64,000 nucleotides of DNA from Synechococcales cyanobacterium bin31.maxbin.ball.101 (GTDB taxonomy: Bacteria; Cyanobacteriota; Cyanobacteriia; Leptolyngbyales; Leptolyngbyaceae): positions 1 through 64,000 of the forward strand of contig JAAFJU010000009.1 in the NCBI GenBank assembly GCA_013298165.1, read 5' to 3'. Position 1 is the first letter of the stretch; each line of letters begins with the position of its first letter. Shown in pieces: positions 44,750 through 58,848 of this stretch. The position numbers and the translations under genes are program-made. The notes under the pieces were generated by a model. The model was given only the letters and a program-made list of their open reading frames with translations, searched no databases and was not told the DNA's origin.

Positions 44750-45661
44750 ATGAAATCTGCACCCTCTCCTATTCCTTATTTACTCGCGATCGCTGCACTG
44801 TTAGCCGGGGGCTGGTGGTGGTTTTCGGGCAAGTCTTTACTGCCTAATATGGCTGAAAACCCCAAACAATCTGTCTCGGATAAAGGCGTTGCGAAAAATC
44901 CGACCCCCAATGCCCCGCCTCAATTTCCAATGCCTCAAAGCGTTGCGGCTAATACCAGTATCCGAATTGACGGCTCTACGAGTATGGTGACAATTAATCA
45001 AAAGCTAAAAACTGGATTTGAAGCGAAGTTTTCTGGAACCCAAGTTGAGACTAAGTCTGGGGGATCGGATAAAGGATTGAGTGGCTTGCAGAATGGGCAA
45101 GTGGATGTTGCCGCTGTCTCGCGACCGTTGAATCCCCAGGAAATCTCTCAGGGGTTAAAAGCTATCTCGATCGCCACCGATCCCGTTGCGATCGTCGTGG
45201 GAATTAATAATCCCTTCAAGGAAAGCCTAACGGCAGAGCAAGCGATCGGCATCTTCAATGGCAGCATCACAAATTGGTCCCAAGTCGGCGGCGCAAACGG
45301 TAAAATTCGCATTATCAATCGTCCAGAAGTCAGCGGGACGCGACAAGTGTTTCAGGACTTAGTGCTGAAGGGCAAAGGGTTTGGGACAGGACCTAATTTT
45401 GTCACCCTTCAAGAAGATGCCACAACGCCATTACTGCGGGCCTTAGAATCCGACGGAATTGGCTATGCCACCTACACCCAAGTCTTTGAACAAAAAACGG
45501 TCCGAGTCCTATCCATCAATTCCCTATCTCCCTTACAAAACGGTTATCCCTACGGACGATCGCTCCTCTACGTCTACAAAGATCCCCCATCAACCGCCGT
45601 CAAAGCCTTCCTAGGCTATGGCTTATCGCCAGACGGCCAAAAGGCCCTGCGATCGGATTAG
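44750..45661 (+). CDS. PstS-like phosphate-type binding protein, membrane anchored
   Basis: A 303-residue protein with an N-terminal hydrophobic anchor (IPYLLAIAALLAGGWWWFSG) and a Pro/Asn-rich linker. The PBP-like domain follows (SIRIDGSTSM, VETKSGGSDKG, VDVAAVSRPL, RPEVSGTRQVFQDLVL). Those Ser/Gly/Thr/Arg motifs match the oxyanion-binding loops of PstS proteins. There are no pstC, pstA or pstB genes nearby, so it may be a sensor or scavenging protein. The gene is 33 bases downstream of the RCK gene. Confidence 0.83.
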   Translation: MKSAPSPIPYLLAIAALLAGGWWWFSGKSLLPNMAENPKQSVSDKGVAKNPTPNAPPQFPMPQSVAANTSIRIDGSTSMVTINQKLKTGFEAKFSGTQVETKSGGSDKGLSGLQNGQVDVAAVSRPLNPQEISQGLKAISIATDPVAIVVGINNPFKESLTAEQAIGIFNGSITNWSQVGGANGKIRIINRPEVSGTRQVFQDLVLKGKGFGTGPNFVTLQEDATTPLLRALESDGIGYATYTQVFEQKTVRVLSINSLSPLQNGYPYGRSLLYVYKDPPSTAVKAFLGYGLSPDGQKALRSD

Positions 45662-45710: not shown

Positions 45711-45742
45711 CCCGGTGCTATAACTCATTGAGCGTTTTATTT

Positions 45743-46366
45743 ATGACCGATCGATTAACCGAATCCCAACTCAGTCAAGTCATTGCCGAAGTCCAGCGCC
45801 TTTCCGATCGGCGAGATCAAGAGCTAGACGAGGCTCAAATGCAAAAAATCCTCACGGAACTCAGCCTTCCTCCCGAGTTATTGGATGAAGCGGTGATCCA
45901 AGTGCGGCGGCGGAAAGCTCTAGAAAACCAAGAGCGGCGAAACCGATTGATCACGGCTGGTGTCGGTGCGCTCATCGTCTCCATCATTGGCGGCGTCTTG
46001 TTTTTCCAGCACCAATGGCAACAAAAACTCGATCGCGTCACCGCTCAGCAATCCCGCATTACCCTTCCCCGTGATGACGGCAGCGATCGTCAAACCATTA
46101 CCCGTCAAAACACCTCGGAAATCAACTATCGAGTTGTGTTGAAAGATGTTCCCATGGGTGAAAAGCTTTCTCTGTCCTGCGATTGGGTTAACCCCAGTAA
46201 CCAAACCGTCAAACAAAATCGCTACGAAACCCAGCCCATTACCACCCCCGAATGGCAAACGGTTTGTCGTCATCAGATCAATCCCAATAGTCCTACAGGA
46301 ACTTGGAAAGTGAAGATGTTGCTGGGCGATCGGACGATTTCCGATCGAAGCTTTGAGGTCAAATAA
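45743..46366 (+). CDS. Single-span membrane protein of unknown function
   Basis: A 207-residue protein from the ATG at 45743 (a TTG at 45728 is an alternative). The N-terminal helical cytosolic region (LTESQLSQVIAEVQRLSDRR, then LTELSLPPELLDEAVIQVRR) is followed by one membrane span (LITAGVGALIVSIIGGVLFF, about 69-88) and a periplasmic beta-rich domain ending GTWKVKMLLGDRTISDRSF. It is the first gene of a closely packed operon, with the next ATG 2 bases after its stop. No family assignment is secure. Confidence 0.72.
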   Translation: MTDRLTESQLSQVIAEVQRLSDRRDQELDEAQMQKILTELSLPPELLDEAVIQVRRRKALENQERRNRLITAGVGALIVSIIGGVLFFQHQWQQKLDRVTAQQSRITLPRDDGSDRQTITRQNTSEINYRVVLKDVPMGEKLSLSCDWVNPSNQTVKQNRYETQPITTPEWQTVCRHQINPNSPTGTWKVKMLLGDRTISDRSFEVK

Positions 46367-46368
46367 CA

Positions 46369-48066
46369 ATGGAGAGAATCGGACAGATTTATCCACTGGA
46401 TCAGGCACCCCATTTTATCGGTTATTGGGGTGTTGATAAGGAGGTAGAAGCCTGGATTCGATCCATCCCGACGGCATCAGCAGTTCCGGTGAAACACATT
46501 GCGATCGCAGCGGCTTATGGCATTACCAATCGCGATCGGGCGGATGCATGGGTGGAGATAACGGGAGATTGCTTAATCCTGGGGCGGGAAGCCTTTGGGC
46601 GGGTTCCACTGTATTGGATGCGACAAGATAAAACCATTTGGTTTGCGTCGCAGTTACAGTTGCTGTTGCCATTGCAAAGAAATACCGTCAGTATTCCTGC
46701 GGTCTATGGCTATAGTTGTTTTTCCTATGTGCCGAATCCGTTGACTCCTGTGGAGGGAATTTTTACGATTCCAGCGGGAACGGAGCAGGTTTGGCAAGGG
46801 CAGGATGAAAGTTTACAACCGCGATCGGTGCGACTGAATCAATGGCAAGAAGCAGATGAGTTAATCACAGATGAAACGCTAGCCGTGTCGGAATTGAAAC
46901 GGTTATTGAAGAAGTCGATCGATATCAAAACTACCGATTTGTCGTCATCTGAACCGATCGGCGTTTTGCTTTCCGGGGGATTGGATTCTTCAGTGGTGGC
47001 GGCGTTGCTGGTGCAGGCGGGGCTGAAGGTGCGAGGCTATACGCTGGATTTTGGCGATGCGGTGAATTCAGAAGTCCCCTACGCAGAACAGGTCGCCCAC
47101 CATCTCAATATTCCCCTCGTCAAAGTCGATGCCAGCGCAAAACGAGTTAAACAAGCCTTAATCTCGACCGTGAAGGCATTGGATTTACCCTTTGGGGATG
47201 GAGTGACGGTACCGCTATATTTGCTTTGTCAGGCGGCCAGTCAGGACGTGCAGGTGATCTTTAATGGGGAGGGCGGGGACCAATTGTTTGCGGGATGGAC
47301 GAATAAGCCGTTGATTGCGTCGGGGGTGTACCGATCGCTCCAGCCCGAGTCAAATTCACCCCTGGACGAGTTCACCGAAGCCTATCTCCGCACCTTTCAC
47401 CGTCTCTGGGGGTATGAATCGCAGGTGTATTTGCCAGCAATCTATGACCAAATCCGATCGCTTCAACCCGCTGACTGGCTTCAGGACGCGCTCGATCCTA
47501 CCCACACCACCGATCTTCTTCAACGTCTACGACGGGCAACCTTAATGCTAAAAGGCGCACAAAACATTCATCCTCGGGCGACGGCGATCGGCTGGGCACA
47601 TGGGTTACAGGTGCGATCGCCGTTTTGCGATCGGGACCTCGCCGACTGGACTTTTCGGCTCTCGGGAGCGCTGACGCTACAAGGCTCCTGCGAAAAATAC
47701 ATTCTTAAACGAGCGGTGGAAGACTGGCTTCCTGAGGAGATTGTTTGGCGAGAAAAACGGGGAATGGGCGTTCCCTTAACCTTGCGATGTTTTAATAATT
47801 GGTGGTCGTCTTTGGGCGATTGGCTTAATCCCGCGAAACTCCGGGCTGAGGGCCTTTTAAAGCCGGATATCGCCGAGCAAATTGTGGCTGGGCGATTGGG
47901 GGCGCACATTCAAGGTCGTCGCATTGGGGAAACCCTGTGGTTGCTGATGATGTGGGAGCTATGGCGATCGGAAGTCCTCGGATCAGAGGCCGTCAAACCT
48001 AGTTGGGATCATCCGTTTTGGATGCCCAAAGCCATTTGGAGTTACCGTCGGAGGTGGCAAGAATGA
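46369..48066 (+). CDS. Asparagine-synthetase-like enzyme without glutaminase Cys
   Basis: A 565-residue protein with a degenerate glutaminase-like N-terminal domain (LILGREAFGRVPLYWMRQD) and an asparagine-synthase domain with the ATP-pyrophosphatase loop VLLSGGLDSSVVAALL near residue 200, FNGEGGDQLFAGW and LQVRSPFCDRDLADWTF. The nucleophile Cys normally at position 2 is missing (protein begins MERIGQIYP), so it cannot hydrolyse glutamine in the standard way. Enzymes like this use ammonia or catalyse other adenylation-amidation reactions (beta-lactam synthetase, lasso-peptide cyclase). Its stop overlaps the next gene start (ATGA), so it is coupled to the decarboxylase-like protein. The substrate is unknown. 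Confidence 0.85.
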   Translation: MERIGQIYPLDQAPHFIGYWGVDKEVEAWIRSIPTASAVPVKHIAIAAAYGITNRDRADAWVEITGDCLILGREAFGRVPLYWMRQDKTIWFASQLQLLLPLQRNTVSIPAVYGYSCFSYVPNPLTPVEGIFTIPAGTEQVWQGQDESLQPRSVRLNQWQEADELITDETLAVSELKRLLKKSIDIKTTDLSSSEPIGVLLSGGLDSSVVAALLVQAGLKVRGYTLDFGDAVNSEVPYAEQVAHHLNIPLVKVDASAKRVKQALISTVKALDLPFGDGVTVPLYLLCQAASQDVQVIFNGEGGDQLFAGWTNKPLIASGVYRSLQPESNSPLDEFTEAYLRTFHRLWGYESQVYLPAIYDQIRSLQPADWLQDALDPTHTTDLLQRLRRATLMLKGAQNIHPRATAIGWAHGLQVRSPFCDRDLADWTFRLSGALTLQGSCEKYILKRAVEDWLPEEIVWREKRGMGVPLTLRCFNNWWSSLGDWLNPAKLRAEGLLKPDIAEQIVAGRLGAHIQGRRIGETLWLLMMWELWRSEVLGSEAVKPSWDHPFWMPKAIWSYRRRWQE

Positions 48067-49280
48067 ATGTAGATCTTGCAACAGCATTGTTAGAAAAATA
48101 CGGGTCGCCATTATATGTCTATGATGGCGATCGATTGCGCGATACGATTCGCCACATTACCCAATCCGTTCCCTATCCCCATACCCAATTTCGATTTGCC
48201 AGCGTTACTAATGGCAATGTTGCTCTGTTGCAAATCTTTCGATCGATCGGTTGGGGACTGCACGCGAACACGCCAGGAGACATCTATCTCGGACTCCAAG
48301 CCGGATTCTCTCCAGACCAAATCGTCTATAGCGGCAGCAATCTCGATCGGTCTGAAATGGAGCAGGTTTTAAATTGGGGAATCACCACGCTGAATCTCGA
48401 TAGTTTGGCGCAATTGGAATTGTTGTGTGATGTGTACCAAACCGTTGGCCGAACCGCCCCCCAGCCCCCAATTCTGGGGGAGCCGGACAATTTGCACCTC
48501 GGCTTCCGGCTCAATCTTCCCGAACTCACGGGCGACAGTCGCATTGGGGTGCGTCCTGAGGAGTTTCCTGCAGCCGTGACGATCGCTGCTGCCGCCGGAC
48601 TCAAAATCACCGGACTCCACTTCTATCGCGGCACCGGAACCAATGCAACGCAAGCCTTCACCCAAGTCATCGATAAAGTTTTAGAAACCGCTAGCCTGTT
48701 ACCGGATTGGCAATACTTGGACTTCGGTGGCGGGTTTGGCTATCCCTATAAGCATGGCGGCGTGGCGTTTGATTGGGAATGGTTCGGGCGAGAATTGACC
48801 GATCGCTTTGAAAAACAAACTAAAAAAATTAATCTGGTCATCGAACCGGGACGAGCGGCGATCGCAGGTTGTGCAACACTCCTCGCGAAAGTGATTTCCG
48901 TCAAATGGCAAGACGAAATTCAGGTTGTCGGTGTCGATACCACGGTGGCAAACCTTTCGGTACCTTCGGTCCACGGCGGCTACCGAGAAATCGAAGTTTT
49001 AACGACTCAAGATTCAATCACTCATCCTACTAATGTATGCGGGAACACAACCTATTCCCGTGATTATCTCGGCAAAAATTGTCAGTTGCCTGCGCTCAAA
49101 ATAGGCGATATTATTGCAATTCTGGATGTGGGAGCTTACGGGTATGCCATGTCGTCACATTTCCTTCATCGTCCGCGTCCACCGGAGGTTTTGCTTGAAA
49201 ATGGAACCGATCGGCTGATTCGTCACCGAGAAGATTACAGCGTTTTGCTCAATCATCAGATCTTTGCTCCCTCAATCTAG
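48063..49280 (+). CDS. Diaminopimelate-decarboxylase-like fold III protein, probable pseudoenzyme
   Basis: A 405-residue protein from the ATG overlapping the preceding stop. The overall fold III pattern is clear: LLEKYGSPLYVYDGDRLR, YLDFGGGFGYPY (219-228), LVIEPGRAAIAG (258-269) and IAILDVGAYGYAMSSHF. However, the segment equivalent to YAVKAN, which carries the PLP-binding Lys, reads FASVTN (45-50), with V48 in place of Lys. The active-site GPTCESGD motif reads GNTTYSRD (327-334), with Thr in place of Cys. PLP phosphate-binding motifs are kept. A dispersed repeat encodes residues 129-142. It may bind a ligand without classical decarboxylation. It is part of the 45743-53339 operon. Confidence 0.8.
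   Translation: MNVDLATALLEKYGSPLYVYDGDRLRDTIRHITQSVPYPHTQFRFASVTNGNVALLQIFRSIGWGLHANTPGDIYLGLQAGFSPDQIVYSGSNLDRSEMEQVLNWGITTLNLDSLAQLELLCDVYQTVGRTAPQPPILGEPDNLHLGFRLNLPELTGDSRIGVRPEEFPAAVTIAAAAGLKITGLHFYRGTGTNATQAFTQVIDKVLETASLLPDWQYLDFGGGFGYPYKHGGVAFDWEWFGRELTDRFEKQTKKINLVIEPGRAAIAGCATLLAKVISVKWQDEIQVVGVDTTVANLSVPSVHGGYREIEVLTTQDSITHPTNVCGNTTYSRDYLGKNCQLPALKIGDIIAILDVGAYGYAMSSHFLHRPRPPEVLLENGTDRLIRHREDYSVLLNHQIFAPSI
48451..48487 (+). repeat. Intragenic copy of the GC-rich palindromic repeat (copy 4)
   Basis: CGAACCGCCCCCCAGCCCCC followed by AATTCTGGGGGAGCCGG matches one arm of copies 1-3. It lies in frame inside the decarboxylase-like gene and encodes RTAPQPPILGEP. The frame is kept on both sides. 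Confidence 0.85.
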
Positions 49281-49289
49281 AAACCCGCT

Positions 49290-50612
49290 ATGAAGTGCAT
49301 CAAATGTTATACCGATAATATCTTGACCGATCGCACGGCTAATAATGGTCGCTGTAAAAGCTGTAATCATCCCTTTGCCTTTGAACCCACTGCGATGACC
49401 AAGGTGAAGATCACCGATCCAAAATTTCAAAAAGCGATCGATGATTTATCAGCCAATAACACCCTCTTTTTTACCCAAACCCAGCTTGCTTACTTTCTCG
49501 ATCGGCGATTAAAACAATCAATGGATAGCTTATATGGTTGTCTGGCTGCTTATCTGATACTCAGTATTTTCCTCTCCATTCCTGCAGTAATATTCGTAAA
49601 TCAAGTGTTTACCATTCTTTCTATGAGTATCGGTACTCGAACTCAGGATGGATTTCCACAAGCTGTTGGGGCGCTTCTTATTCAGACGTTAGGCGTGACT
49701 GCAGCCTATTTCTCTGCAATATCCAATAAATCAAGTAACCGATCTCGCTTAGTCAGCGCTAAAGCACTCCGAATCATCGGTCTATTTTTAATTTTTTTAG
49801 GGGGTGCGATAGTGATTCACCTTTTCCCCTCATTTTTTCTGTTTGCATGGACCGTATTACTGGGAGTGATAAGCATTTATCTCGGAAATTTTCAACTGAG
49901 CCAACCGTCGATCAGTCAAAAATTCTTATTCTTAGTTTCTGATTTGAATGGCTGGCTAGACTCATGGAAAAAAGCGAATGGGACAATCCCAAAACTCCTC
50001 TCATCGCCTCGTTTAGCCGCTGCTAGTGCCAGTATTAATCCTGATGTAAGTGCTTATAGCTTCGATCGTCTCGTCGTCTGCGATCGCGCTGAAATCGCCC
50101 AACTCCTCATTGCCAACAACTTCCACTTTGAGAATAACTGCGCCGTTTTAAGTGTCACTGGATACCCTGAAAGTATTTTTGATACCACCATGCAAATGCT
50201 TTATCGAAATCCCAATCTCAAAGTTTTTGTGGTGCATGATTGTAGTCCTAAGGGAATGGGGTTAGTGCAGAAGCTGCAATCTAGCGATCGATGGTTTAAA
50301 AATCGAAATGTCCTAATCATTGATATCGGTTTAACCCCTCGCCAAGTCGCATCTGCAAGAGGAATCTTTATCCAAACCTCCGAGGCATCTGCAAAAGAAG
50401 CCAAACAAGCGAATCGATCGCAATGGCAAGGACTCGCCCCCGACGAAATCAAATGGTTACAAGCTGGAAATTATGTCGAACTTGAATCATTTACTCCTCA
50501 ACGCCTGATTCAAGTGATCAATCAGAGCATTGCTGGAAATCGAGATCTATCTGACAGCGGTGGCTATGCAGGAGATGGCGGTTTTATTTCGAGTTCCGAT
50601 AGCTTTGGTTAA
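49290..50612 (+). CDS. Zinc-ribbon, four-span membrane protein with Toprim-like C-terminus (paralogue 1)
   Basis: A 440-residue protein of no family I can name. The N-terminal zinc ribbon uses C3, C6, C22 and C25 (MKCIKCYTDN, GRCKSCNHPF). A conserved soluble stretch follows (KITDPKFQKAIDDLSANNTL, FFTQTQLAYFLD), then about four membrane spans (75-205). The C-terminal region from about 250 is soluble (YSFDRLVVCDRAEIAQLLIA, CAVLSVTGYPES, VFVVHDCSPKGMGLVQKLQ) and ends in a Gly/Ser-rich tail finishing SSSDSFG. The alternation of strands with VHDCSPKG recalls Toprim domains, with the D-x-D pattern incomplete; this is inference. Nine bases separate it from the decarboxylase-like gene. Confidence 0.85.
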   Translation: MKCIKCYTDNILTDRTANNGRCKSCNHPFAFEPTAMTKVKITDPKFQKAIDDLSANNTLFFTQTQLAYFLDRRLKQSMDSLYGCLAAYLILSIFLSIPAVIFVNQVFTILSMSIGTRTQDGFPQAVGALLIQTLGVTAAYFSAISNKSSNRSRLVSAKALRIIGLFLIFLGGAIVIHLFPSFFLFAWTVLLGVISIYLGNFQLSQPSISQKFLFLVSDLNGWLDSWKKANGTIPKLLSSPRLAAASASINPDVSAYSFDRLVVCDRAEIAQLLIANNFHFENNCAVLSVTGYPESIFDTTMQMLYRNPNLKVFVVHDCSPKGMGLVQKLQSSDRWFKNRNVLIIDIGLTPRQVASARGIFIQTSEASAKEAKQANRSQWQGLAPDEIKWLQAGNYVELESFTPQRLIQVINQSIAGNRDLSDSGGYAGDGGFISSSDSFG

Positions 50613-50651
50613 TTTCAGATCCTGACACGCTAAACTCTCTGAGAATTCATC

Positions 50652-51971
50652 ATGAAATGCATCAAATGTGGCACCGACAATATTTTGACCGATCGCACCA
50701 CTAACAGTGGTCGTTGTAAAACCTGTAATCATCCCTTCGTCTTTGAACCTACGACAATGGCCGGGGTAAAAGTTACTGATCCAAGATTTAAAAAAGCGAT
50801 CGATGATATCTCTGCAAACAATACTCTCTTTTTCACACAAACTCAGCTTGCTTACTTTTTAGATAGTCGATTACGACGATCGAATAGTTCGACGCAGATG
50901 GGCTGTCTTTATATCTTTATGAATGTTTGGTTTACAGGGTTTTTTGGTGGAATGTCTTACAGTTTTTTAGGTAACTCGATCGCGCTAATGGGAATTCCAA
51001 CGCCACCTGGATTCTACGCACTGGCTGCAAACTTAGTCTTTCAATTTTTAACGCTTTCAAGTCTCTATTCTCAGTCTAAATCTAAAAAAGTAGATAGTCG
51101 ATCGCGTCGCTGGAGTCTTAAATATCTGCAGTTAATTGGAAAACTAGTTTTAGGCATTGGCAGTGTTTTAACAGTATTCTTTATTCCATCATTTTTACTA
51201 TTTTCTATGGTTGTGGTGATGGGTGTTGGCGCAATTTACCTGGGTAATCGACAGCAAGCGCTTCCACCTGTGAATCAGGATTTTCTATTTTCAAAGCTAG
51301 ATTTCCAAGGTTGGATTTTACGCTGGAAAGCAACCAATCAATCCATTCCAAAACTACTCGAACCCCCCATCGAACAGTTGCCCATGGCTGCTGTTAGCTC
51401 GGATGTGTCGGCCTATAGCTTCGATCGGCTGGTTGTCTGCGATCGCGCTGACATTGCCCAACTTCTGATTGCCAATAACTTCCACTTTGAAAATAATTGC
51501 GCTGTTTTAAGCATCACTGGATATCCTAAGAATATCTTTGATACCACCATGGAAATGCTACATCGCAACCCTAATCTCAAAGTTTTTGTGGTGCATGATT
51601 GTAGTCCTAAGGGTATGGGATTAGTGCAGCGGTTGCAGTCTAGCGATCGATGGTTTAAAGGTCGAAATGCATTGATTGTTGATATTGGTCTGACACCCCG
51701 TCAAGTCCTTGCTGCGAAAAACATTTTTATTCAGACTTCAGAGGCTTCGGCTAGAGAGGCTCAACAGGTGGATCGATCGCAATGGCAAGGACTCGCGACC
51801 GAAGAAATCAAATGGTTAGAAGCTGGAAATTATGTCGAACTTGAATCATTCACTCCTCAACGACTGATTCAAGTGATCAATCAGAGCATTGCTGGAAATC
51901 GAGATCTATCTGACAGCGGTGGCTATGCAGGAGATGGCAGTTTTATTTCGAGTTCCGATAGCTTTGGTTAA
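50652..51971 (+). CDS. Zinc-ribbon, four-span membrane protein with Toprim-like C-terminus (paralogue 2)
   Basis: A 439-residue tandem paralogue with the same plan: CxxC pairs at the N-terminus (MKCIKCGTDN, GRCKTCNHPF), diverged membrane spans at about 75-205 (WFTGFFGGMSYSF, LQLIGKLVLGIGSVLTVFFI), and a C-terminal domain nearly identical to paralogue 1 (RLVVCDRADIAQLLIANNFH). The tail again ends SSSDSFG. The spacer before it (50613-50651) shares the motif ATTTCAGATCCTGACAC with the spacer after it. The membrane region is the only strongly different part, suggesting different membrane contacts or partners with the same cytosolic machinery. Confidence 0.85.
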   Translation: MKCIKCGTDNILTDRTTNSGRCKTCNHPFVFEPTTMAGVKVTDPRFKKAIDDISANNTLFFTQTQLAYFLDSRLRRSNSSTQMGCLYIFMNVWFTGFFGGMSYSFLGNSIALMGIPTPPGFYALAANLVFQFLTLSSLYSQSKSKKVDSRSRRWSLKYLQLIGKLVLGIGSVLTVFFIPSFLLFSMVVVMGVGAIYLGNRQQALPPVNQDFLFSKLDFQGWILRWKATNQSIPKLLEPPIEQLPMAAVSSDVSAYSFDRLVVCDRADIAQLLIANNFHFENNCAVLSITGYPKNIFDTTMEMLHRNPNLKVFVVHDCSPKGMGLVQRLQSSDRWFKGRNALIVDIGLTPRQVLAAKNIFIQTSEASAREAQQVDRSQWQGLATEEIKWLEAGNYVELESFTPQRLIQVINQSIAGNRDLSDSGGYAGDGSFISSSDSFG

Positions 51972-52010
51972 TTTCAGATCCTGACACACTAAATCCTCTG
52001 GGAATCCATT

Positions 52011-53339
52011 ATGAAATGTATTAAATGTGGCACTGATAATATTTTGACCGATCGCACTACTAACAGCGGTCGATGTAAAAGCTGTAATCACCCCTTCGCC
52101 TTTGAACCCACTACGATGACTGGGGTAAAGATCACTGATCCACAATTTAAAAAGGCGATCGACGAAGTCTCTTCAAACAATACTTTATTTTTCACCCCAA
52201 CTCAATTGGCATACTTTCTAGACAGTCGGGTCAGGCGAGCTTCTGTTAAGTCCATACTCAGCTCTGCTCCTATACTGTGTCTGTTTTTCAATATATTTGG
52301 AACTATTTTTGGAGTAGGCATAACAGCAGTTGTTCTTCGAGTGATTTCTATAATAACAGGCAAAATAATTCCTGATGAGTGGTCATTGATTATTGCAAAT
52401 TTATTTATTCAGGGATGGACAATATTTTGGTTATTTGAAAATATAACTTCTAGTAAATTTGATAACCGAGGACGACGAAAACTGGCCCAATACCTCAAGA
52501 TACTGGGATATATAATACTATTCGTCGGAACATTGGTATCTATCGCTATTGTCCAGTCATTTTTCCTCTTCTTCGTCGTAGTGTGTATGGGAATAGGAGC
52601 CATTTATTTGAGTGCTCTTCGATCGTCTCAACCAACCAGTAGCCAAGAATTTCTATTTAAAAATAGTGAGTTTCAAGATTGGCTAAAGCGTTGGCAAGTG
52701 GTCAATCAGGAAATGCCAAAGCTTCTTCCATCTCCGCGTCAGCAGTTGTCGGGTACGATGGTTAATCCCGATGTGACCGCCTATAGCTTCGATCGGCTCG
52801 TCGTCTGCGATCGAGCCGAAATCGCCCAACTTCTGATTAGTAATAATTTCCACTTTGAAAACAACTGTGCAGTTTTAAGCATCACTGGATACCCTGAAAG
52901 TATCTTTGACACCACGATGCAAATGCTTCATCGAAATCCCAATCTCAAAGTTTTTGTGCTGCATGATTGTAGTCCGAAGGGGATGGGATTAGTGCAGAGA
53001 TTGCAGTCTAGCGATCGATGGTTTAAAAATCGAAATGTTTTAATCATTGATATCGGCCTAACGCCTCGGCAAGTTCTTTCTGCAAAAGGAATCTTTATCC
53101 AAACATCAGAAGCTTCTGCAAAAGAAGCTTCGCAAACCAATCGATCGCAATGGCAAGGACTCGCCCCTAATGAAATCAAATGGTTAGAAGCTGGAAATTA
53201 TGTCGAACTCGAATCCTTTACCCCACAACGACTGATTCAAATTATCAATCGTGGTATTGCCGGAAGTCGGGATCTATCCTACGACGATGGCTATTCGGGA
53301 AGTGATGGTTTTATTTCGAGTTCCGATAGCTTTGGTTAA
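52011..53339 (+). CDS. Zinc-ribbon, four-span membrane protein with Toprim-like C-terminus (paralogue 3)
   Basis: A 442-residue third tandem copy. Zinc ribbon (MKCIKCGTDN, GRCKSCNHPF) and C-terminal domain (RLVVCDRAEIAQLLISNNFH, VFVLHDCSPKGMGLVQRLQ) are conserved; the membrane region (FNIFGTIFGVGITAVVLRV, LKILGYIILFVGTLVSIAIV) is again distinct. The tail differs slightly in its Gly-rich part but keeps FISSSDSFG. Its stop lies one base from the end of the convergent asparagine-synthetase-like gene, so it closes the operon. Confidence 0.85.
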   Translation: MKCIKCGTDNILTDRTTNSGRCKSCNHPFAFEPTTMTGVKITDPQFKKAIDEVSSNNTLFFTPTQLAYFLDSRVRRASVKSILSSAPILCLFFNIFGTIFGVGITAVVLRVISIITGKIIPDEWSLIIANLFIQGWTIFWLFENITSSKFDNRGRRKLAQYLKILGYIILFVGTLVSIAIVQSFFLFFVVVCMGIGAIYLSALRSSQPTSSQEFLFKNSEFQDWLKRWQVVNQEMPKLLPSPRQQLSGTMVNPDVTAYSFDRLVVCDRAEIAQLLISNNFHFENNCAVLSITGYPESIFDTTMQMLHRNPNLKVFVLHDCSPKGMGLVQRLQSSDRWFKNRNVLIIDIGLTPRQVLSAKGIFIQTSEASAKEASQTNRSQWQGLAPNEIKWLEAGNYVELESFTPQRLIQIINRGIAGSRDLSYDDGYSGSDGFISSSDSFG

Positions 53340-53340
53340 C

Positions 53341-55074
53341 TTAATGATTGCCCCTGAGCCAAATTTCTAAACTCGTGAGTAACCAGAGTTTCACACCATA
53401 GCGTCCCCAGACATCCCCACGATAGTTCAACCACTCCCGAATCACGTCTTGATTAATATAAGGTGCGATCGCCGCTTTCTTATCGAGCAAAAGCGATCGT
53501 GCTTCCCGATTCCAATACTCTCGAAACCCGAGTTGCACAGGCACCATCATGCCGCTCTTCGGTCGGTTAATAATCGCATCCGGCAACAGATCCGCCACTG
53601 CGGCTTTAAGAACTGCCTTCTCCTCCACCCCCGACAGCTTGTACTCCGGCGGAATCTCCATACTCAAATCCACCACCCGCTGATCAAACAACGGCGATCG
53701 GCCCTCCACTCCCGCCGCAAACGTTAAATTATTCACCTTCGTTAAAATCTGATCGGCCCCTTTGAAATTAATATTCAACGCCATCAAACGGTTAAGATAG
53801 CTGCGATCGGAATTCAAATCCGCCGAAAACACCCAAGGCTGAGACTCAATAGCCGCCCAAATTTTAGGCTTTAAAAGCTGGGGTAAATCCGTCGCACATT
53901 TTTGATAGGAAATCAAATAAGCCTGCAAACTATCCTGCTGCGTCACCGCCCCATACAATCTATTAATCAACATCGGCTGATTCTTCGGTCCCCCAAAGCA
54001 AGGATCCCCGCCCTCGCCATTCAGAATCACGTTCACATCTTGTTTCGCTAACTGTCCCAGTAACAAGTTCGGCACCGTCAGCGGATCACCGATCGGATCA
54101 TCCAATGCCGCCATCGTCTCCGGCAATCGGTCCCACATCTCTTGAAACTTAATTTCTAAAATATGATGTTGAGTTTGGCAATGTTGGGCGACCAAACTTG
54201 AAAACTCTAACTCGTGGGGAGTCCGATCGCCGAAATGAATCGAATAAGTATGCACAGGTGCCGCGTGAAACTTCGCAACTAGTGCTGTAATGCAACTTGA
54301 ATCCAAACCACCCGAAAGAAACACTCCGACAGGCTCACCCTCCTTTGGCAATGCCTCTTTCACCACTTGATCTAATAAGCGTCGCAACCGATCGCCATGC
54401 CATTCCAGCGATTGGTCCGCCGCAATAATCTGCTCCTGCAATTCCCAATACACCTGCATCGTGCCATCCGGCTGCATCACCTTCCCCGGTCGCACCTCCC
54501 GCACACCCTCCCACATCGTCCGATCGCCCGGTACAAACGAACAACACAGATAATCCCGCAACGCAACCAAATCCACTGTGCGCGAATGGTACGGTAACAA
54601 CGATCGCAACTGCGGCGCAATCCACCTCGTCGCCCCTTGAGTCGTGTAATATAGTGTCCGCGCCCCCGCCCGATCGCGCCCAAACCAAAGCTGCTGCTGC
54701 TCCCGATCCCACACCACCAGATTCGCCATCCCAATCAATAATGGCCAGGTTTCAATGCCATATTTTTCCCATAGATGGGCTACGAGGTCTAAATCATTAT
54801 CTGGCTTGGGTAAAGCGCTTCCCAGCATCTCCCACAACGCCCCAGGCTGGCTCAACCACACCTCCCCCACGACGACAAATCGCTCTGAAGGACTGAGCCG
54901 CCAAGATGAAGATCCACTGGGGTTGATAATTGCAAACTGCCGATCGTGCCATGTGGGCATTTCTGAAAGATGCTCTAGATTGCCCCAAGCGACTCGCCAA
55001 GTGGTTTGAGGAGTGATAGGTGATATATCAATATTCGCTTGTTTTCGAGCTGACAGCCACGATCGAAATGCCAT
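53341..55074 (-). CDS. Second asparagine-synthetase-like enzyme without glutaminase Cys
   Basis: About 577 residues from the ATG at 55074; a TTG at 55167 would add 31 unconvincing residues. A degenerate glutaminase-type domain (VVVGEVWLSQPGALW, LWFGRDRAGARTLYY) precedes the synthetase domain with the ATP loop VFLSGGLDSSCITALV near residue 250, LNGEGGDPCFGGP and GVEGRSPLFDQRVVDLSMEI. It starts MAFRSWLS with no Cys2. It is convergent with, and touches, the last zinc-ribbon gene. It belongs to the same broad family as 46369-48066 but is clearly divergent, so a lineage-specific pair with related chemistry is plausible. Product unknown. Confidence 0.83.
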   Translation of the reverse strand: MAFRSWLSARKQANIDISPITPQTTWRVAWGNLEHLSEMPTWHDRQFAIINPSGSSSWRLSPSERFVVVGEVWLSQPGALWEMLGSALPKPDNDLDLVAHLWEKYGIETWPLLIGMANLVVWDREQQQLWFGRDRAGARTLYYTTQGATRWIAPQLRSLLPYHSRTVDLVALRDYLCCSFVPGDRTMWEGVREVRPGKVMQPDGTMQVYWELQEQIIAADQSLEWHGDRLRRLLDQVVKEALPKEGEPVGVFLSGGLDSSCITALVAKFHAAPVHTYSIHFGDRTPHELEFSSLVAQHCQTQHHILEIKFQEMWDRLPETMAALDDPIGDPLTVPNLLLGQLAKQDVNVILNGEGGDPCFGGPKNQPMLINRLYGAVTQQDSLQAYLISYQKCATDLPQLLKPKIWAAIESQPWVFSADLNSDRSYLNRLMALNINFKGADQILTKVNNLTFAAGVEGRSPLFDQRVVDLSMEIPPEYKLSGVEEKAVLKAAVADLLPDAIINRPKSGMMVPVQLGFREYWNREARSLLLDKKAAIAPYINQDVIREWLNYRGDVWGRYGVKLWLLTSLEIWLRGNH

Positions 55075-55176
55075 TGGACTCACTTCCGTAGAGCAATACG
55101 TTCCCTTTCTATCATCGCACAAGCGGTCTGAATGAATCAGAAATAGTGGGCGATGCGATCGGGTCAAAGAATTCTA

Positions 55177-58100
55177 TCAAGTTGCATCGGTCTGACAAAT
55201 TTTAAACTGTTCTTTGGTCTGTGGGTAGAGTGCGAAATACTCTTCAAGGTGTTGACATCCCTTTTTGAGTAACGAGTCTAATTTTAAATTCCACACATGA
55301 ATCCGGATCCCATCCGTGGCCACGATCGCGGTCCCATCATGGTTAAACATCAGCGCATTATTGATAGAGCCACCCAGATCGGCACTATAAATCAGCCGTC
55401 CATCGGATTGCCAAACATACAGGCCACCATCCTGTGATTTGGAGGCTAGAAGATCGCCCGTAGGATTGAGAATGGTAGCGGTCCCCTGTCCTGTAAAACC
55501 TGTACGATCGAACGATCGAACTTGCTGTCCAGCTCGGTTCCAAAGCGTAACGCGATGATCCCGCGAGATAATTCCAAAGAACTGGCCATTTGAGGATTCA
55601 GGATTTTCTGATAGATAGGAATTCATCGTTACTTTTTGGAAGTTTGTCCCATCAGGTTTATATAGAACCAGTTCATTATTTTCTCCTATCTCCATTGAAT
55701 AACCATTTATAAAGGTAGTTGTCCAGGAGTTATTAAGCTGCTGCTTAAATAGAACTTTCTTGGTTTTAAGATGGAGATTATGATGAAAGATAGGCTGATT
55801 TTTTGAACTCTCGGGGGTTTGGATATTAGGTGTCGAAATAAATTCATGATTAGAAGTAAAATGAATCTGTTGGGTTTGAGTCAGTGTCTGGAGTCGTTGG
55901 CCCTTGATGTCGTAGATTTCGATCGTCTCGTCCACACCCGCTTCACCTGCGATCGCTACTGTCTTACCATCAGGACTCACAGTAAAAAAGTCCCATTCCA
56001 GCTTAACAGGCATGGTTTTGATTAAAGTTCCATTTAATTGTCGAATCTGGAGTACTTTCTGATTTTTTGAAATTATAAAAAGATGGTTCCCCGAGGCATC
56101 GATCTTTATTGATGGCGTTTTTAAAGCAGACTCAAATTTCTGTAGAACACGGCCTTCTAAATCCTGAATAGTAATCTGTCCATTATTTCGACTATAGATC
56201 AAGAGATCCTGCTGAGGATGGAGAATCACTTGATTAATTCTGAGATCGGCTTGAATAGCTTCTGCTGGCTGTACTCGCTCTGTCATTGGTTTGTACTTCA
56301 GGTTCCAAGCCTGAGGCGGTTTTTCGACCTCGGTGAACCAGTCAATGGCAGGTTCGTAATATCCTTGAGCGGTTTGATTGAAAGCAGGGGCGAGAAGACC
56401 TTGAGAATCAGTCTTCCAGAGGCTAATCTCAGTATTGGATAAAATGGCCATAAAATGACGATCGGGACTATAGGAAAAATCCTGAATTGCAAACTGACTG
56501 GGCATAATAGATGAGATAAGTAGCCCTTCAGAATTCCAAATATTTAAGGTATTAGACTCCGCAGAGACATAGCGTTGATCCGAATGAAAGTAAGCATGAC
56601 GAAGGATTGTATTCGAGGATAGCGTAATTTTAGGATAGCGCTTTAGTAAATTCCCTGTAATGATATCTATCACTTCAGGCTGGTTTTGATCATTGCGGAA
56701 AACAATTGCATCTCGATCGGCAACAAATGAGAAAAAACGAACGAATTCTTGTTGAGGCTTTCGATCGCTGATGGGATACGATCGAAGTAGGTTGCCTTGA
56801 ATGTCGAGACTCAGCACAAGCCCTCGTTGTGTTACTCCGATTAAGGATTTGCCATCGTTACTGTAGACAAGTCGTCGCAATTTCTCACGCGGTGGAGTGG
56901 GGGCTGAAAACTGATGGATTATTTGCCCGCTCTGAGACTCCAAGATAGAAACTTGATTGTCTAAATTCAGCGCTACGATTTGGTTTTTAGATGGATGATA
57001 ATCCACGTAAAGAATGGGATGGGATGGCTTTTTGGGGTCTTGAGATGGATGGAGGGTAAACTGCTTTAGTCGTTGTCCCTGAAGATTCCAAAGGGTTAGA
57101 GTTCCCTCAAAATCACCTGTGACGATCGTTTTCCCATCCGCACTAAAGTCAATATTAGAGGTTCCTTCACTCACCTTCCATCGATTGCGCTGCTGTATCC
57201 GCCCTAATACATCCTGAAGGGCAAAGATCGGAGCATAGGTCGGCGGCTGAGCATGGCTTTTGGTGTCCATGATTTGCTTTAGTTTTGTCGCATTTTGGAG
57301 TGCTGTAAGTAAATCAGGAATTTGGGTGGCATCCGATCGGGACTGAAGTAATCGATCGGCGGCCTGCTCCATGGCCTGTATCTCCGATCGGGACTCTAGT
57401 ACTTGATTTGAATGGCGGAAGGAGAGGTAAACGGCGATCGTGCTGCCCAAGGAGATAGTAAGAATTCCTAATCCAATCATCAACCATTGTTTGGTTTGAT
57501 GTTGCACATTTGTGAGCCGTTGTCTGGCATCAGATTCCTGGGCTGTGGCTTGGATTGTTTTGGATTGAGCCAATTCGAGTTGTTGGGCTTGACTGGCAGA
57601 GAGATATTGATAGTCAATTTGACTGAGACTGAGTCCTTCGGCCCAGTTCAGGGCTGTCTGTAAGGCGTGAACGGGCAGTAAATACTGTGTCTGACGGTTT
57701 CCCAATTCCCAGGCTGACAATTCTGCACCATAGGGTCGAATTTGTCGAAGGACTTGCTTTGTCCAGGTCTGATCAAAAATGCTGCGGTAAATTCGATTGT
57801 AAATGAAGACTTTGTTTTGCCGTTTAATCACCAGGCCAGACAGCCGAAATTGCATTAATTCAGGGCAATCCTCGATCGTCATTTCCCCCTGATTTAAAAG
57901 CTGTTGATATAGTCCCAAGGCCCATACTGTAAAGGTTGAGTGATTTAAAATTCGATCGCGAATGGTTTGAAAATGCTGTTGACGATCGTGGGTCATCCAG
58001 GATTGAATGATCTGCTGTCGAACTAGGGTTTCTACGGTTTGGATTTCTAGCCCGAAGGCGATCGACTGTTCTGTGCTATTGAGAGATTGGTACAGCACCT

Positions 58101-58848
58101 GACAAACCCATTGCGTGAGAAAAGGCTGCCCACCCGTCCAGTCTAAAATAGCGGCCATGACCGCAGTCGGACGATCGGACCAGCGCGAAAATCCAATCTC
58201 CAAGGGCTTAGCTTCTTCGAGTGTAAAACCTGTTAATTCGATCGATCGGCTTTCAATATTCCAGGGCGTGACGCTTTGATCATCAATCAAGTCAACGGGA
58301 GTCGCTACGCCAAACAATGCAAAGTTTAATCGCTGAAACTCAGGTTTATCCGATCGTTTACTATAGCAAGATCGCAAAAAGGCAAAGAAATCATCTTTGA
58401 ACTCTAAGTTCAGAATCGTATCCACCTCATCAATGAAGATCACGATCGTCTCCTCAATCTGCCGCAGGAGAACCTCTTCGACAAACTTATTCAACCGCAA
58501 AAAAGGATGAAACAATTCATGCTGTTGCCACCAAGCGGACAGATCAATTGTAAGATTCAAAGCATTGGCTAAATGACTGACAAATCCACCATAAAATTCA
58601 TCTGCCGTCACCCCCTGCACACAAAGTTCTCGCATTTCAAAGGCAATACAGCGATATCCATCCGATCGTAAGCGCGACATGGTCCGCACGCGCAAGCTGG
58701 ACTTTCCCATTTGTCGGGAATTGAGGACATAGCAAAACAAGCCTGATTTCAGGCCCGAATACAAGTCTCCATCGGCTTGACGCGGAACATAAGTGCTAGA
58801 GGTCTCCTGTAAGCTACCCCCGACTTGGTAGGGCTGAAGCGAAATCAT
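55177..58848 (-). CDS. AAA-like ATPase with membrane segment and WD40-like propeller
   Basis: A 1223-residue multidomain protein. The N-terminal AAA-like (AAA_35 type) domain has a Walker A variant NSRQMGKSSL near residue 47 and Walker B IVIFIDEVDTIL near 135, followed by a winged-helix-like region (TGGQPFLTQWVCQVLYQSLN). A hydrophobic segment near 460-482 (WLMIGLGILTISLGSTIAVY) follows a helical linker. The rest (about 545-1210) carries WD40-like blades such as NIDFSADGKTIVTGDFEGTL and LTLWNLQGQRL. The design resembles signal-transducing NTPases with propeller sensors. The start overlaps the stop of the upstream AAA gene (ATGA), so both proteins are coupled. Function unknown. Confidence 0.85.
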   Translation of the reverse strand: MISLQPYQVGGSLQETSSTYVPRQADGDLYSGLKSGLFCYVLNSRQMGKSSLRVRTMSRLRSDGYRCIAFEMRELCVQGVTADEFYGGFVSHLANALNLTIDLSAWWQQHELFHPFLRLNKFVEEVLLRQIEETIVIFIDEVDTILNLEFKDDFFAFLRSCYSKRSDKPEFQRLNFALFGVATPVDLIDDQSVTPWNIESRSIELTGFTLEEAKPLEIGFSRWSDRPTAVMAAILDWTGGQPFLTQWVCQVLYQSLNSTEQSIAFGLEIQTVETLVRQQIIQSWMTHDRQQHFQTIRDRILNHSTFTVWALGLYQQLLNQGEMTIEDCPELMQFRLSGLVIKRQNKVFIYNRIYRSIFDQTWTKQVLRQIRPYGAELSAWELGNRQTQYLLPVHALQTALNWAEGLSLSQIDYQYLSASQAQQLELAQSKTIQATAQESDARQRLTNVQHQTKQWLMIGLGILTISLGSTIAVYLSFRHSNQVLESRSEIQAMEQAADRLLQSRSDATQIPDLLTALQNATKLKQIMDTKSHAQPPTYAPIFALQDVLGRIQQRNRWKVSEGTSNIDFSADGKTIVTGDFEGTLTLWNLQGQRLKQFTLHPSQDPKKPSHPILYVDYHPSKNQIVALNLDNQVSILESQSGQIIHQFSAPTPPREKLRRLVYSNDGKSLIGVTQRGLVLSLDIQGNLLRSYPISDRKPQQEFVRFFSFVADRDAIVFRNDQNQPEVIDIITGNLLKRYPKITLSSNTILRHAYFHSDQRYVSAESNTLNIWNSEGLLISSIMPSQFAIQDFSYSPDRHFMAILSNTEISLWKTDSQGLLAPAFNQTAQGYYEPAIDWFTEVEKPPQAWNLKYKPMTERVQPAEAIQADLRINQVILHPQQDLLIYSRNNGQITIQDLEGRVLQKFESALKTPSIKIDASGNHLFIISKNQKVLQIRQLNGTLIKTMPVKLEWDFFTVSPDGKTVAIAGEAGVDETIEIYDIKGQRLQTLTQTQQIHFTSNHEFISTPNIQTPESSKNQPIFHHNLHLKTKKVLFKQQLNNSWTTTFINGYSMEIGENNELVLYKPDGTNFQKVTMNSYLSENPESSNGQFFGIISRDHRVTLWNRAGQQVRSFDRTGFTGQGTATILNPTGDLLASKSQDGGLYVWQSDGRLIYSADLGGSINNALMFNHDGTAIVATDGIRIHVWNLKLDSLLKKGCQHLEEYFALYPQTKEQFKICQTDAT

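Follow-up and report, generated by a model that had tools for sequence, protein, structure and literature searches.

A 64,000-nucleotide stretch (hereafter the window) of the cyanobacterial assembly Synechococcales cyanobacterium bin31.maxbin.ball.101 (contig JAAFJU010000009.1, positions 1 to 64,000) encodes three tandem membrane proteins, here called copies A, B and C, of a family that, like the gene cassette in which it resides, is apparently undescribed. We read these proteins, tentatively and at slightly less than an even chance, as disarmed, membrane-anchored relatives of TopoVI-A and Spo11 that would act as the non-nuclease, tail-presenting subunit of a complex with two asparagine-synthetase-like proteins (AsnB1 and AsnB2) and a pseudo-decarboxylase (LysA-like). 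The three genes are:

49290..50612, + strand: copy A, 440 residues, with a zinc ribbon, a membrane region, a degenerate Spo11/TopoVI-A-type Toprim domain and a Phe-Gly (FG) tail
50652..51971, + strand: copy B, 439 residues, architecture as in copy A
52011..53339, + strand: copy C, 442 residues, architecture as in copy A; the copy used for the AlphaFold2 (AF2) model

First, the C-terminal domain is well supported, by profile matches and predicted fold, as a Toprim domain of the TopoVI-A/Spo11 type. The domains lie as follows:

50049..50537, + strand: Toprim-like domain of copy A (PF21180 E-value 8e-5; alignment)
51408..51896, + strand: Toprim-like domain of copy B (PF21180 E-value 4.5e-4; alignment)
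52776..53264, + strand: Toprim-like domain of copy C, residues 256-418, with acid positions D267, D319 and S321 and invariant C266 and H318 (PF21180, E-value 3e-5; Foldseek; column counts)

PF21180 (TOP6A-Spo11_Toprim) was the one Pfam family worth noting. The E-values listed come from single-sequence scans, in which copy C scored 24.5 bits relative to a curated cut-off of 24.1; in the whole-genome search copies A and C passed the cut-off, and 39 of 40 aligned relatives matched with E-values of 1 or less, the best being 3.6e-8. The AF2 model of copy C, built from 40 sequences (mean predicted local distance difference test score, pLDDT, 84.9; predicted template-modelling score, pTM, 0.78), retrieved TopoVI-A or Spo11 at every one of Foldseek PDB ranks 1-8 (probability 0.99-1.00, E 2.4e-3 to 1.7e-2); such modest E-values reflect a match confined to a single domain of a larger protein. 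Comparison of the family profile with the sequences of solved structures returned nothing at E up to 1. A preliminary description of this DNA, made from its letters, had guessed at a Toprim domain with an 'incomplete acidic motif'; profile and predicted fold now both point to TopoVI-A/Spo11, and the second remark proved exact.

Second, the metal site of this domain is, as the alignment columns strongly argue, degenerate. The acids of Methanosarcina mazei TopoVI-A are E202, D254, D256 and E342 (PMC13040014). At the Glu position, 81 of the 82 family members have Asp (D267 in copy C); the first Asp of the Asp-x-Asp (DxD) motif is retained in 70 and replaced by Asn in 11 (D319); and the last position holds Ser, Asn or Thr throughout, with no acidic residue in any of the 82 (S321). 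The Glu plus Asp-x-Asp ligands of TopoVI-A/Spo11 are thus not those of the family, and degeneration of this kind makes a nuclease function unlikely. Beside the acid positions, C266 and H318 are invariant in the family and shared by the Streptomyces relatives described below, suggesting that the pocket may have been put to a new use. Two further parallels, that E399, within a VELES motif, may be the counterpart of TopoVI-A E342, and that K/R64...Y68 have the same spacing as TopoVI-A R102...Y106 together with a QLxY/RQLYY resemblance, remain leads because no winged-helix domain was detected: residues 1-80, where the Top6A N-terminal winged helix would be expected, matched none of the winged-helix families. 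A separate 487-residue cyanobacterial Toprim protein (genome G036, L084:4974-6437, - strand) has an intact acidic motif (VEK...HDFD); its sequence places it between TopoVI-A and JetD/DUF2399, and it is likely catalytic. It aligns to the family over the same Toprim stretch, linking the family to catalytic TopoVI-A/JetD-type proteins.

Third, the tandem arrangement itself records an unequal history of the protein halves. Copies A, B and C are open reading frames of the window on one strand, separated by 39 bp each, and their genes share repeats at the DNA level, 300 nt with 84-87% identity and 230 nt with 76-80%, a likeness beyond chance; the proteins are mutually 65-66% identical. A genome search found no further copies in the 5.4-Mb assembly. 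Three tandem paralogs of 439-442 residues, a four-Cys zinc ribbon and about four membrane spans had already been recognized from the letters. The parts of copy C are:

52011..52112, + strand: zinc ribbon, residues 1-34 (C3, C6, C22, C25)
52257..52628, + strand: membrane region, residues 83-206, fast-evolving (AF2 helices; 30-35% identity between copies)
53265..53336, + strand: tail, a disordered Asp/Gly/Ser stretch ending in Phe-Gly (pLDDT below 50)

The four Cys are kept in all 80 aligned relatives that cover the zinc ribbon. As for the spans, the AF2 model places four long helices at residues 63-206, but hydropathy alone finds one strong segment in copy B and two in copy C, and one to four segments among relatives. 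The motifs quoted at the outset are present with small differences between copies: FFTQTQLAYFLD stands in copies A and B, with FFTPTQLAYFLD as its counterpart in copy C; VVCDRAEIAQLL is shared by A and C, with VVCDRADIAQLL in B; AVLSVTGYP of copy A reads AVLSITGYP in B and C; and HDCSPKGMGLVQ and SSSDSFG are common to all three. Between copies, the membrane regions are only 30-35% identical in amino acids, with silent sites saturated or nearly so; the Toprim parts are 84-94% identical (proportion of synonymous differences, pS, 0.42-0.55) and the tails differ still less (pS 0-0.24). At a two-copy locus elsewhere (L033), the Toprim part has a pS of 0.03, against 0.38-0.41 upstream, and Toprim trees group same-genome copies (L033, L034), which upstream trees do not; the window copies form one clade in trees of either part. 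This pattern fits lineage-specific duplication in which the 3′ half underwent gene conversion and the membrane module diverged, and it lends real support to an early suggestion of subunit diversification.

Fourth, these proteins do not occur alone. They sit within a conserved cassette spanning about 45743 to 55167 of the window, whose other genes are:

45743..46366, + strand: gene 1, a small protein with one transmembrane helix and an immunoglobulin (Ig)-like outer domain; start at the family-invariant Met, with a TTG at 45728
46369..48066, + strand: gene 2, AsnB1, asparagine-synthetase-like; no N-terminal Cys, ATP pyrophosphatase (PP) loop SGGLDSS kept
48003..49280, + strand: gene 3, LysA-like; Lys of the pyridoxal phosphate (PLP) site changed to Val, CEsGD motif replaced, start codon uncertain
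53341..55167, - strand: gene 5, AsnB2, convergent; no N-terminal Cys, SGGLDSS kept, GEGGDPxFGGPKNxPML, start codon uncertain

Packing is tight: genes 1 and 2 are 2 bp apart, genes 2 and 3 overlap, 9 bp precede copy A, and 1 bp separates copy C from AsnB2. Most of 46 loci in other cyanobacteria repeat the scheme of a small transmembrane protein (~207 residues), AsnB1, LysA-like, one to three family copies and, often, a convergent AsnB2; in genomes from a second class of the phylum an AsnB2-type gene adjoins the family, and in two of these a LysA-like gene is adjacent as well. In a sample of 386 genomes, 39 of which (about 10%) hold the family, LysA-like is found in 35 of the 39 and 35 of its 36 holders have the family; the corresponding counts are 32 of 39 and 32 of 32 for AsnB1, and 37 of 39 and 37 of 41 for AsnB2. 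The Fisher p-values of 3e-40 to 1e-44 overstate this association, as related genomes are not independent, although the genome sets nevertheless span many families. Gloeothece PCC 7822 carries a complete cassette on a linear conjugative plasmid, and in one genome (G385) all cassette parts carry stops, a joint decay. Co-occurrence, plasmid carriage and joint decay together provide good support for conservation of the cassette as a unit.

Several loci depart from this scheme. In genome G123 (L118:7103-8959, - strand), AsnB1 and LysA-like are fused in a 618-residue frame that lacks parts of both, probably a deletion product, and the Toprim-like gene is intact. In genome G011 (L116:7841-10537), AsnB2 is broken by what look like transposase genes, leaving a cassette relic. 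Intact AsnB2-type genes without other cassette parts, and without an adjacent tail-bearing membrane partner, lie at L114:8486-10228 and L115:8417-10132. A TIGR04222 membrane protein encoded a few kb upstream of the cassette on the Gloeothece plasmid (L113:1-769) likewise has an odd terminal tail, GGCGCGC. In the window, a PstS-like phosphate-binding protein (44750-45661, + strand), which is not a recurrent neighbour, stands just upstream of the cassette, and a 1223-residue AAA_35 and WD40-repeat protein (55177-58848, - strand) directly beyond AsnB2, outside the conserved cassette.

The enzymes of the cassette appear to have lost activities as well. LysA-like aligns over its length to diaminopimelate decarboxylase 2p3e, with the PLP lysine replaced by Val and the CE of CEsGD by TT; neither the PLP-binding lysine nor the catalytic Cys of that enzyme is present, the losses are conserved across the family (consensus of 50), and the true LysA of the genome, with YASKAWN and HCESGD, lies on contig C227. 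From its residues, LysA-like would be a decarboxylase-like pseudoenzyme. No conserved N-terminal Cys is found in 44 AsnB1 and 17 AsnB2 sequences, so that both are presumably glutaminase-dead; the ATP site is kept, with SGGLDSS (consensus SGGxDSS) in both, and so is the region of the synthetase-site lysine. Both the outgroup class and Streptomyces share the AsnB2 signature GEGGDPxFGGPKNxPML. Among AsnB-like enzymes, TsrC, ScdTA and PesC are known to modify peptide C-termini (PMC13060819, PMC4525488), and a Glu and a Tyr are reported to be conserved in PesC and in the asparagine-synthetase-like enzymes compared with it (PMC13060819).

What could such enzymes act upon? In all 82 family members a disordered stretch rich in Asp, Gly and Ser leads up to a C-terminal Phe-Gly; of 518 neighbouring genes, the set from which the background was taken in place of the whole proteome, 2 have a Phe-Gly end by chance. 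The preliminary description had called the end a Gly/Ser tail; SSSDSFG is indeed there, but the composition is Asp/Gly/Ser-rich and the invariant FG went unremarked. Beyond Cyanobacteriota, the family was found on one Streptomyces plasmid, where a diverged cassette (Streptomyces sp. NBC_01237, NZ_CP108509.1, 6423-12101) has three tandem Toprim-like copies without an FG tail, the first two reading HDAD at the DxD position and the third HDAS. Directly after them comes a 179-residue protein with one transmembrane helix that ends ...GAWSDDDFG, and then an AsnB 41-43% identical to AsnB2. Since the tail here sits on a separate protein beside AsnB, it behaves in this single record as a module that can part from the Toprim-like protein but remains with AsnB.

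Taken together, it is fair to infer that the cassette products form one membrane complex. In the likeliest mechanism, the zinc ribbon and Toprim-like domain would form a docking or ligand-sensing platform, presumably on the cytosolic side, and the flexible tail would present its C-terminal Phe-Gly to AsnB2, which would recognize it. AsnB2 might then modify the tail carboxylate, through ATP-dependent activation and amide formation, or simply dock on the tail peptide; chemical modification is speculative and on the unlikely side. In a fuller version, which we consider rather unlikely, the cassette would be a new kind of protein-tail modification system in which a glutaminase-less AsnB activates and conjugates the C-terminal Phe-Gly, the pseudo-decarboxylase serves as a specificity or amine-binding subunit, and the membrane module varies across paralog arrays, in which tail and Toprim platform are kept alike by gene conversion. 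In Streptomyces, the tail carrier to be modified would be the separate small membrane protein.

Several observations weigh against the complex proposed here. The full-length template-modelling scores of the Foldseek matches are low (0.2-0.3), as a single domain matches. The Streptomyces case of a separate tail is one record. The Glu/Tyr pair of PesC-type enzymes appears, by our own reading of the GEGSDEVFGGY motif, as Pro/Pro in AsnB2 and Gln/Trp in AsnB1, which makes canonical carboxylate activation by the AsnBs uncertain. Genomes G087 and G116 hold an intact AsnB2 but no family member, and AsnB2 may therefore have another role; at these orphan loci, a check for an FG-ended neighbour found none in G116 and only an unrelated short open reading frame 7 kb away in G087.

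The altered Glu/Tyr positions and the orphan AsnB2 genes, together with the disorder expected of a short linear motif, favour instead a Phe-Gly tail with no role beyond signalling assembly, sorting or degradation, with the Toprim-like protein as a structural scaffold and the AsnBs acting on a small molecule or another protein. We hold this to be unlikely, though deserving of serious weight, as the tail keeps to the AsnB neighbourhood even when carried by another protein in Streptomyces. The cassette could also be a gene cluster that makes an amide-containing small metabolite or a component of the envelope, with membrane proteins for export or anchoring: the AsnB and decarboxylase homologs match the exosortase/exopolysaccharide-associated TIGR03108 and TIGR03099, below cut-offs, and the Ig-like domain of the small transmembrane protein resembles by fold, among others, Wzt carbohydrate-binding domains. 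This is improbable for a decarboxylase homolog without its catalytic lysine, and no acyl ligase, transporter or glycosyltransferase was recognized by inspection among recurrent neighbours. Defence roles of other Toprim proteins (PMC13040014), the patchy and partly plasmid-borne distribution and the diversified membrane region might speak for a stress or anti-phage sensor whose zinc ribbon and degenerate Toprim would detect nucleic acid or a nucleotide by binding it and pass the signal on through the membrane region; we find this distinctly improbable, as no PADLOC model (JetD included) matches family members and the AsnBs give weak QueC-type PP-loop matches only. An active membrane-tethered nuclease, topoisomerase or primase, to which the PF21180 match, the retained D267 and D319 and the K/R64...Y68 spacing might point, is highly improbable, the active nuclease being rejected on its lost metal-site acids (the third in all 82, D319 as Asn in 11), with no winged helix detected and no TopoVI-B-type or SMC-like partner recognized among recurrent neighbours, the rest of the genome not having been searched for TopoVI-B.

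How does the proposed tail-presenting subunit relate to what is known? The claim that it fits no named family is supported as far as the searches reach: Pfam and NCBIfam gave no whole-length match, only the Toprim and weak zinc-ribbon matches; the protein of Gloeothece PCC 7822 is a 'hypothetical protein' in RefSeq; and literature searches found no description of family or cassette. NCBIfam matches to Bcr/CflA, SipW and AccD were far below cut-off, in hydrophobic or zinc-ribbon parts, and were set aside; viral contigs held no relatives. With TopoVI-A/Spo11 (PF21180) the family shares fold, motif order and an H-D-x-x-x-x-G segment, several members exceeding the Pfam cut-off, but it differs in its degenerate metal site, undetected winged helix, additional zinc ribbon and membrane region, and the lack of a visible TopoVI-B partner. 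The JetD/MksG (Wadjet) nucleases are distant Toprim relatives, and the L084 protein matches both groups weakly; the family is, in contrast, membrane-bound, has lost its acids and is without SMC-like partners, no SMC/kleisin genes being recognized among recurrent neighbours. TsrC, ScdTA, PesC and the lasso and beta-lactam synthetases share the AsnB fold and PP-loop and act on peptides or carboxylates, whereas AsnB1 and AsnB2 lack the N-terminal Cys and, as we read it, the Glu/Tyr pair, and a large membrane protein, instead of a small precursor peptide, is their putative substrate. QatC, a PP-loop enzyme, works with a partner bearing an unstructured tail and terminal glycine motif (PMC13279940); the parallel with QatB/QatC and type IV CBASS Cap9 (QueC family) is of logic only, for there the tail is N-terminal and the enzyme QueC, not AsnB.

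The AsnB/LysA cassette, the invariant Phe-Gly end and the weight of the degenerate site against a nuclease had all escaped the preliminary description. If our reading holds, a Spo11/TopoVI-A core has been turned from DNA cutting to service as a membrane platform, in a conserved cassette whose Toprim and decarboxylase are missing catalytic residues and whose AsnBs have lost their glutaminase, and a new protein modification may exist in cyanobacteria, many of them filamentous, and in at least one actinomycete.

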